From Sandaracinus amylolyticus (GTDB lineage Bacteria; Myxococcota_A; Polyangia; Polyangiales; Sandaracinaceae), in contig NZ_CP070225.1 in the NCBI RefSeq assembly GCF_021631985.1, forward strand, positions 2,294,001 through 2,358,000: DNA of 64,000 nucleotides, written 5' to 3'. Under the pieces are notes generated by a model, which worked only from the letters and a program-made list of their open reading frames with translations, searched no databases and was not told the DNA's origin. The position numbers and the translations under genes were made by a program. This document shows, piece after piece, positions 43,167-48,074 of this stretch (the stretch's first letter is position 1; the number at the start of each line of letters is the position of its first letter).

Positions 43167-45002
43167 GTGCGCCCGACCTCTTGGCTCGCTGCGTTCTTCC
43201 TTCTGCTTCCATCGCTCGCCCACGCGCAGTCCCCCGACGCCTGCAGCGCCGAGGACCCCGACGCGTGCGCCGCGGCGGGGCGCGCCTTCGAGGACGGCAC
43301 CGGCGTGCCCCGCGATCTCGCGCGCGCCGCCGACCTCTACCGCCGCGGCTGCGCGAGCCGTCACCCCGAGTCGTGTCGCCGCCTCGGCGCGATGCAGCTG
43401 CTCGGCGTCGGTGTCCCTGCCGATCCCGCGCAAGCGCGCGTGCAGTTCCAGACCGCGTGCGAAGCCGGCGACGCCCCGGCGTGCTTCGACCTCGGGCGCA
43501 TCATCGAGCGCGGGATCGGTCGCGAGGCCGACTTCACGCGGGCCCGCGGCTTCTACGAGCGCGGCTGTCGCCAAGGGCACGGCCCCTCGTGCACCCACGT
43601 CGGCCGCATGCTCTCCGGCAGCAGCGGCACGCGCGAGCTGCGCGAGTCGGCGGCGCTGCTCGAGATGGGCTGCGCGCTGAACGACGCGCCCGCGTGCACG
43701 CTGCTCGGGTGGATGCACGCCGAGGGACGCGGCGTGGGCCGCGACGCGGCGCGCGCCGCCGAGCTCTACGAGCTCGGGTGCGATCAGGACGACTTCGCCG
43801 GGTGCGAGCAGCTCGGCGCGATGCTGCGCGAAGGGCAGGGCGTCACCGCCGATCTCCAGCGCGCCGAGCGCTACCTGCGCCGCGCCTGCGAGGCGAACCG
43901 CGCGCCCGCGTGCAACGACCTCGGTCTTCTGCTCGAGGACGCGCGCGGCGCGGCGCCCGCGGCGGCGTTCTTCGAGCGCGCGTGCGAGGGCGGCGAGCTC
44001 GTCGGCTGCGTGAACCTCGGGCGCTTGCACGACCAGGGCGCGGGCATCGCCGCCGATCCCGCGCGCGCCGTCGCGCTCTACGATCGTGCGTGCCGCGGCG
44101 GCGACGGGCTCGGCTGCGTGAGCCTCGGCCTGCTGCGCGAAGAAGGCCGGGGCGCGGCCCGCGATCTCGAGGCCGCGGCGCGCCTCTACCGCGACGCGTG
44201 CCAGCGCCACGAGCGCCTCGGCTGCATCCACCTCGGGCGCATGCACGACGACGGTCGGGGCGTCGCGCGTGATCCCGCGGAAGCGGTGCGCCTGTTCCGT
44301 CGCGCGTGCGACGAGGGCGATCTCTACGGCTGCGCGAACCTCGGCTGGATGTACGAGCGCGGCCGCAGCGTCCCCGCCGATCCGGCGCGCGCCGCCGAGC
44401 TCTACGCGCGCGCCTGCGACGGCGAGGATCTGCTCGGCTGCGCGAACCTCGGCGCGCTGCACGAGGACGGCCGCGGCGTCCCCCGCGACCTCACGCGCGC
44501 GATCGCGCTCTACACCCGCGCGTGCGACGGCGACGAGCTCTACGGCTGCACCCGGCTCGGCCTCGCGTTCCGCCACGGCATCGGCGTCGCGCAGGACGAT
44601 CGCCGCGCGCTCGAGCTCTTCACGCGCGCGTGCGACGGCGGTGATCTGCGCGGCTGCAACGCGCTCGGCTACATGCGCGAGCGCGGCCTCGCGACCAGCG
44701 CCGACGTGGGCGGCGCGGCGCGCCTCTACCAGCGCGCGTGCGAGGGCGGCGTCGCGCCCGGCTGCACCAGCCTCGGCGCGCTCTACGTGCGCGGCGAGGG
44801 CGTGACGCGCGCGCCGGCCCAGGGTGCGGCGCTGTTCCGCCAGGCGTGCGACGCGGGCCACGCGCTCGCGTGCAGCAACCTCGGCGCGCTCTACGAGAGC
44901 GGCACCGGCGTCGCGCGCGACGCACGGCTGGCGAGCGAGCTGTTCCGCCGCGCCTGCGCGGCCGGACATACGGCGGCGTGCGAGCGCACCGGCGCGCAGT
45001 AA
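43167..45002 (+). CDS. Secreted Sel1/Hcp-like cysteine-rich repeat protein
   Basis: Exported solenoid of 611 aa. The signal peptide (about 1-21, AHA-Q) is followed by about 16 Sel1-type repeats of roughly 36 residues. Most end in a GCxNLG- or ACxxLG-like segment and carry a second Cys in RACxxG, as in Helicobacter Hcp proteins whose Cys pairs form disulfides. Motif units such as CDGGDLRGCNALGYM and CEANRAPACNDLG recur. The family often mediates protein-protein contacts at the cell envelope. GTG 43167 is the start. The gene ends 28 bases before the degenerate edge of the 41-bp repeat array. Confidence 0.88.
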   Translation: MRPTSWLAAFFLLLPSLAHAQSPDACSAEDPDACAAAGRAFEDGTGVPRDLARAADLYRRGCASRHPESCRRLGAMQLLGVGVPADPAQARVQFQTACEAGDAPACFDLGRIIERGIGREADFTRARGFYERGCRQGHGPSCTHVGRMLSGSSGTRELRESAALLEMGCALNDAPACTLLGWMHAEGRGVGRDAARAAELYELGCDQDDFAGCEQLGAMLREGQGVTADLQRAERYLRRACEANRAPACNDLGLLLEDARGAAPAAAFFERACEGGELVGCVNLGRLHDQGAGIAADPARAVALYDRACRGGDGLGCVSLGLLREEGRGAARDLEAAARLYRDACQRHERLGCIHLGRMHDDGRGVARDPAEAVRLFRRACDEGDLYGCANLGWMYERGRSVPADPARAAELYARACDGEDLLGCANLGALHEDGRGVPRDLTRAIALYTRACDGDELYGCTRLGLAFRHGIGVAQDDRRALELFTRACDGGDLRGCNALGYMRERGLATSADVGGAARLYQRACEGGVAPGCTSLGALYVRGEGVTRAPAQGAALFRQACDAGHALACSNLGALYESGTGVARDARLASELFRRACAAGHTAACERTGAQ

Positions 45003-45029
45003 CGGCGCTCCACCAGGAACGCGGCGGTC

Positions 45030-45512
45030 GTGCGCCGGGAAGAACGACGGTCGGCGCCAGGAAAACCGCCGTCCGCGCTAGGTCGAGCGGTGTCCGCGCC
45101 TCGAAAACGGTCTCCGCGCCAGGTCGAGCGGTGTCCGCGCCTCGAAACCGGTCTCCGCGCCAGGTCGAGCGGTGTCCGCGGCTCGAAAACGGTCTCCGCG
45201 CCAGGTCGAGCGGTGTCCGCGCCTCGAAAGCGGTCTCCGCGCCAGGTCGAGCGGTGTCCGCGCCTCGAAAGCGGTCTCCGCGCCAGGTCGAGCGGTGTCC
45301 GCGCCTCGAAAACGGTCTCCGCGCCAGGTCGGTCGGTGTCCGCGCCTCGAAAACGGTCTCCGCGCCAGGTCGCGCGCTGTCCGGGCCTCGAAAACGGTCT
45401 CCGCGCCAGGTCGCGCGCTGTCCGCGCCTCGAAAACGGTCTCCGCGCCAGGTCGAGCGGTGTCCGCGCCTCGAAAACGGTCTCCGCGCCAGGTCGCGCGC
45501 TGTCCGCGCCGG
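45030..45512. repeat. 41-bp tandem repeat array, 11 near-identical units with internal 20/21-bp halves
   Basis: Eleven units of 41 bases start at 45080, 45121, 45162, 45203, 45244, 45285, 45326, 45367, 45408, 45449 and 45490. Each unit is two related halves of about 21 and 20 bases with the shared core GGCGCGGA-N-ACC on the minus strand. One half ends in a variable segment (GAGCGGT, GGTCGGT or CGCGCT on the plus strand) and the other in an A-rich TCGAAAACGGT. Degenerate half-units extend left to about 45030. The array stops at the Hsp70 stop codon (45513). The sequence lacks spacers, so it is not CRISPR, and there is no recognised gene. It fills the 510-base gap between the Sel1 and Hsp70 genes. 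Confidence 0.9.

Positions 45513-48074
<2,562 letters not shown>

Follow-up and report, generated by a model that had tools for sequence, protein, structure and literature searches.

Tandem direct repeats spaced at about two helical turns are found in iterons and plasmid centromeres, such as the Rep iterons, parC/ParR, and tubC/TubR. Head-to-tail, homogenised units in intergenic spacers are found in minisatellites (VNTRs), and the repeat array of type III toxin-antitoxin systems (ToxIN) adjoins a small-protein gene. Repeat-RNA antitoxins with units of a length similar to the 41 bp described here are known. In this study, we analysed a 41-bp tandem array that lies between a SEL1-repeat gene and an Hsp70 chaperone gene of Sandaracinus, a soil myxobacterium, within a window of 64 kb (the whole stretch of DNA that was analysed). 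The contig has 10.75 Mb (10,754,065 bp) and belongs to a two-contig genome. With half-units of 20 and 21 bp in its 41-bp unit, the array resembles iterons and plasmid centromeres in its spacing, and its 11.2 homogenised copies in an intergenic spacer (94% matches) resemble a minisatellite. A search of the open-access literature found no description of arrays of this class, and tandem repeats are not mentioned in the main text of the S. amylolyticus genome paper (PMC5010890).

The array in the SEL1-Hsp70 spacer

The array and its flanks were delimited as follows.

43167-45002, plus strand: flanking gene for a SEL1-repeat protein, 611 aa, convergent with Hsp70 (ORF list; Pfam Sel1, E 1.3e-89)
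45003-45049, no strand: decayed left edge of the array, reaching the SEL1 stop (sequence, unit listing)
45050-45510, no strand: 41-bp tandem array, 11.2 copies, half-units of 20 + 21 bp, core CGGTNTCCGCGCC on the plus strand (TRF, unit listing, column variation)
45513-48074, minus strand: flanking gene for an Hsp70/DnaK relative, 853 aa, stop codon at 45513-45515 (ORF list; Pfam HSP70, E 1.2e-72)

TRF analysis identified this array, with a period of 41, no indels, and a score of 780, as by far the strongest noncoding array of the window. Each unit consists of two half-units, GTGTCCGCGCCTCGAAAACG and GTCTCCGCGCCAGGTCGAGCG on the plus strand. Both contain a common core, which reads CGGTNTCCGCGCC on the plus strand and GGCGCGGANACCG on the Hsp70 strand. 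The 10 full units from 45090 differed from their consensus at only 0-3 positions each. This variation fell mostly in the linkers (unit columns 0, 17, 37, and 38) and not in the core. An earlier note on this DNA had described a 41-bp array of high identity with two related halves and a common core, and TRF and the unit listing established both the array and the core. The fixed core with a variable segment elsewhere and the leftward decay, which the same note had reported, were also borne out, the decay by degenerate units that lead in at 45003-45089.

The last partial unit of the array stops at 45510, directly before the Hsp70 stop codon. The array thus abuts this stop, as had been noted, but the sister species does not share this arrangement. 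Together with its decayed left edge, the array occupies the spacer at 45003-45512. Since this is the whole spacer of two convergent genes, the region described earlier as the 3' side of Hsp70 is the 3' side of SEL1 as well.

Neither a terminator (a GC-rich hairpin followed by a T run) nor a promoter was found in 44800-45700. A CRISPR array was rejected, as there are no unique spacers and the linkers recur in every unit. RNA folding was compared with two kinds of controls. The window array folded worse than dinucleotide shuffles on both strands (z +3.2 and +2.05), and the window array and the A4 arrays described below folded no better than unit-permuted controls, which keep the repetition. RNA structure was therefore rejected as the function of the array, and these values do not support the earlier suggestion of an RNA structure in the Hsp70 3' region.

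Phased arrays and the helical proteins beside them

The wider class of arrays was examined in an unbiased sample of 1.36 Mb from both Sandaracinus genomes, on which the genome-wide statements rest. Genes in the sampled regions were called with a simple codon-usage caller written for this analysis. Repetitive intergenic spacers numbered 20 of 268, and in 15 of these 20 the best period was 20-22 or 41-43 bp (about 2 expected if periods of 15-80 were equally likely). In B-DNA, such periods correspond to roughly two and four helical turns. The unit sequences were mostly unrelated between loci, and the common feature that establishes the class is the period. In the sister species, another 41-bp array, with 6.5 copies and 21-bp halves, was observed at L251:3869-4136.

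A second interspersed repeat family was also observed, with units of 83-91 bp of the type GGAGTGCTCGTCCCG...GGGAGCGCGCG...GGCGGGCGAGCCGAT. Tandem copies of it occur at many intergenic sites of both Sandaracinus genomes, including the following.

L095:2881-3147: 83-91-bp repeat family
L145:4326-4593: 83-91-bp repeat family
L146:2351-2594: 83-91-bp repeat family
L151:11890-12098: 83-91-bp repeat family
L115:178-642: 83-91-bp repeat family
L174:2476-2638: 83-91-bp repeat family

Several arrays of the phased class adjoin genes for unannotated helical proteins of 226-318 aa. A profile (A2) was built on three array-adjacent proteins as seeds, and the alignment extended from it was designated A3. A profile search detected about 30 A3 relatives in 5 of 10 genomes of the family. 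When the intact loci were read, an array of 40-43-bp units was present beside 26 of 28 A3 genes, or 23 of 25 without the three seed loci, compared with a background of 24 of 1108 genes in a random sample. Many A3 members share no more than 17-30% identity with the first sequence. The side of the gene on which the array lies depends on the clade: upstream in one, downstream in the other. One broken A3 gene (G000:C1:603733-604280; L220, L223), whose match is split in two, had no 41-43-bp array beside it. This was the only such case seen, and it fits the view that array and gene are retained jointly. Many A3 arrays contain two strong palindromes per unit, about 20.5 bp apart. Dyad symmetry was not clear in the window array or in the array at the gene A4-1, so the half-site is not established as palindromic here, and dyad symmetry was rejected as a general rule of the class.

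A second family, A4, has five genes in the genus, and an array is located upstream of all five. Distant A4 homologues elsewhere in the order have 21/42-bp repeats upstream clearly at L240, L243, and L244 and weakly at L239; others have none. A 209-bp tandem duplication with 99% identity was observed near the third A4 gene (L125:8682-9104). The association of arrays with these helical-protein families is established by the counts at the A3 and A4 loci.

A3 and A4 were rejected as one sequence family (hhalign probability about 1%). AlphaFold models of both were all-helical, with a mean pLDDT of about 82. For neither family was there a convincing Pfam or NCBIfam match, a recognised DNA-binding domain, a relative among solved structures, or a PADLOC match. 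One A3 member was searched for in plasmids and phages and was not found. The S23 / 23S rRNA IVP four-helix bundle 2rld gave Z values of 7.5 (A3) and 8.2 (A4), which are within the range of unrelated helical bundles, and the best Foldseek E-values for the models were about 0.1-0.2. Naming the fold from Foldseek and VIA matches was rejected because the matches are too weak. One of 26 A3 alignment members weakly matched the Pfam entry fvmX7, a domain of an FtsH ternary system (E 0.0073), possibly by chance.

Further unannotated helical proteins, of 226-270 aa, were observed beside 41-43-bp (or 21/42-bp) arrays. Simple alignment did not relate them to A3 or A4, and they are possibly more families of the same system.

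L163:6002-6682: helical protein beside an array
L121:6429-7112: helical protein beside an array
L192:18734-19546: helical protein beside an array
L130:16337-17110: helical protein beside an array

The ortholog of the first of these in the genome of the window (L260) is also beside an array, with nearly the same unit.

A distant partner array and its change between species

No A3- or A4-type gene lies directly beside the window array. We searched for its core in two complete genomes of the genus, that of the window (G000) and that of a sister species (G001). In G000, the core was periodic at only two loci, the Hsp70 spacer and an array upstream of an A4 gene, designated A4-1.

G000:C1:4094760-4095713: A4-1 gene, helical protein of the A4 family
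G000:C1:4095771-4096236: partner array upstream of A4-1, 1.76 Mb from the window array

The window array and the A4-1 array of G000 match at 31 of 41 positions, with the mismatches in the linkers. The orthologous Hsp70/SEL1 spacer of G001 also contains a 41-bp array with 20/21-bp halves and a similar copy number (11.3 versus 11.2 in G000), but its core is different. This array is about 70 bp from the Hsp70 stop and is close to the SEL1 stop instead. The A4-1 locus of G001 has an array with the same core as the Hsp70/SEL1 spacer of G001. The earlier note had proposed a search for the core in other genomes; the G000 core pattern had no match in G001. Likewise, the G001 core pattern had no match in G000, and in G001 it occurred at the two array loci and one isolated site. 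The orientation of both arrays relative to the flanking genes is the same in both species. The core thus differs between the species in a matched manner at the two loci.

The within-genome pairs of arrays (Hsp70 spacer versus A4-1) gave alignment scores of 94 and 86, which were reached by 0 of 1000 unit-permuted controls. The crossed pairs between species scored 15-20 and were not significant. The orthologous Hsp70-spacer arrays, whose unit sequence has diverged to about 65%, scored 60. This score suggests that the Hsp70-spacer arrays of both species probably descend from one ancestral array.

The proteins were then compared between the species. A4-1 is 65.4% identical, whereas its neighbours are 91.8% and 86.6% identical; the values for Hsp70 and SEL1 are 95.4% and 90.7%. 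A4-2, which represents a second type, shows 95.2% identity and has kept its core. In both species, A4-2 is likewise paired with a distant array that has its core and lies in the spacer at proB. Among ten ortholog pairs, protein identity correlated with array similarity (Spearman 0.74, p 0.014). The data do not support a role for the array that is linked to Hsp70 itself, since Hsp70 is 95% identical between the species while the array core differs. No 41-bp array was found near 6 distant Hsp70 homologues (49-51% identity). In summary, two distant arrays have changed their core alike and in step with one fast-evolving protein, which is most simply explained if A4-1 recognises both. These results suggest that one protein recognises both arrays.

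Possible roles of the array and comparison with known systems

Among the options raised in the earlier note, a protein-binding or chromatin-like phased array is the best supported, because the two-turn phasing recurs and the core changes together with that of a distant array beside a helical-protein gene. A plasmid-like site is not supported, as the array is chromosomal and has ordinary genes on both sides. We somewhat favour the reading of the window array as a remote, cooperative binding platform, with A4-1 as its likely ligand. About 22 half-sites, two helical turns apart and on one face of the DNA, would allow cooperative protein binding. A4-1 is the candidate ligand, as it is encoded 1.76 Mb away and has its own upstream array with the same core. 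This upstream array would be the home site, with a role in nucleation or autoregulation. For the window array, we envisage a remote structural site in the convergent spacer, which may serve in chromosome bridging or anchoring, in protein titration, or as a roadblock between the convergent transcripts. DNA binding, cooperativity, and the cellular role of the window array are inferred here.

The main rival is neutral turnover of a minisatellite by slippage and unequal exchange, in which the two distant arrays are homogenised by gene conversion or unit copying and no binding protein is involved. Units are strongly homogenised inside each array and have diverged at the orthologous spacer, and concerted evolution alone can give both. 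Copying of units between the two arrays could also yield their common cores. However, this explanation does not readily account for cores that are common to two loci while the linkers are not, for the preference for periods of 20-22 or 41-43 bp among loci whose sequences are unrelated, or for the persistence of arrays beside A3 genes of such low identity. In addition, conserved proteins go with conserved array cores, and proteins that differ between the species go with cores that differ. We regard neutral turnover as less likely but give it serious weight.

That the array, bound or unbound, acts mainly as a transcription roadblock or insulator between SEL1 and Hsp70 is improbable. It does fill a convergent spacer without an intrinsic terminator, and the proB partner array is likewise in a convergent spacer, but the arrays of this class are mostly found upstream of genes for helical proteins or in spacers of other types. 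An RNA element is very improbable, whether as a structured 3' untranslated region or as a repeat RNA that works together with a protein, like those of type III toxin-antitoxin systems. Repeat-RNA antitoxins do have units of similar length, and strong folding of both strands was seen in A3-family arrays (z about -2 to -8 in most of the arrays tested). However, the window and A4 arrays do not fold better than controls, the window array has no Rfam match and no adjacent candidate toxin gene, PADLOC did not recognise the proteins, and the side of the gene on which A3 arrays lie varies by clade.

The binding platform may be part of something broader. We tentatively propose an undescribed chromosomal system in Sandaracinus and its relatives, in which each genome would have dozens of helically phased arrays with 41-43-bp units, and each array would be read by a helical protein of its own from A3, A4, or a similar family. 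Some of these proteins would mark another, distant chromosomal site as well (for example the Hsp70 spacer), and the specificity of protein and array would co-evolve. If the pairing is real, matched protein-DNA specificities are available as a ready-made set, in which one has changed between two closely related species, and the co-evolution of DNA-binding specificity and its repeated targets can be tested. The pairing may also reveal how large myxobacterial chromosomes are organised, and it would unite intergenic repeats that have been ignored and many 'hypothetical proteins' in a single system open to testing.

The A3 and A4 loci resemble ToxIN in that a repeat array adjoins a small-protein gene. 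Unlike a ToxIN array, the window array lacks RNA structure and is flanked by the 3' ends of SEL1 and Hsp70 rather than placed directly upstream of an endoribonuclease toxin gene, the A3/A4 proteins lack a PADLOC match, and arrays may sit downstream of the gene. A small-protein gene beside the array is also a likeness to iterons and plasmid centromeres. Compared with those, the Sandaracinus arrays are chromosomal, with many unrelated cores per genome, and the neighbours of the window array are SEL1 and Hsp70 rather than a replication or partition gene. Its candidate partner proteins are unannotated, predicted all-helical bundles, and there is a second array that matches it at a distance of 1.76 Mb. 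Unlike minisatellites, the Sandaracinus arrays keep to periods near 20.5 and 41 bp even where the loci are unrelated, are associated with two protein families, and show a paired core change at two distant loci.
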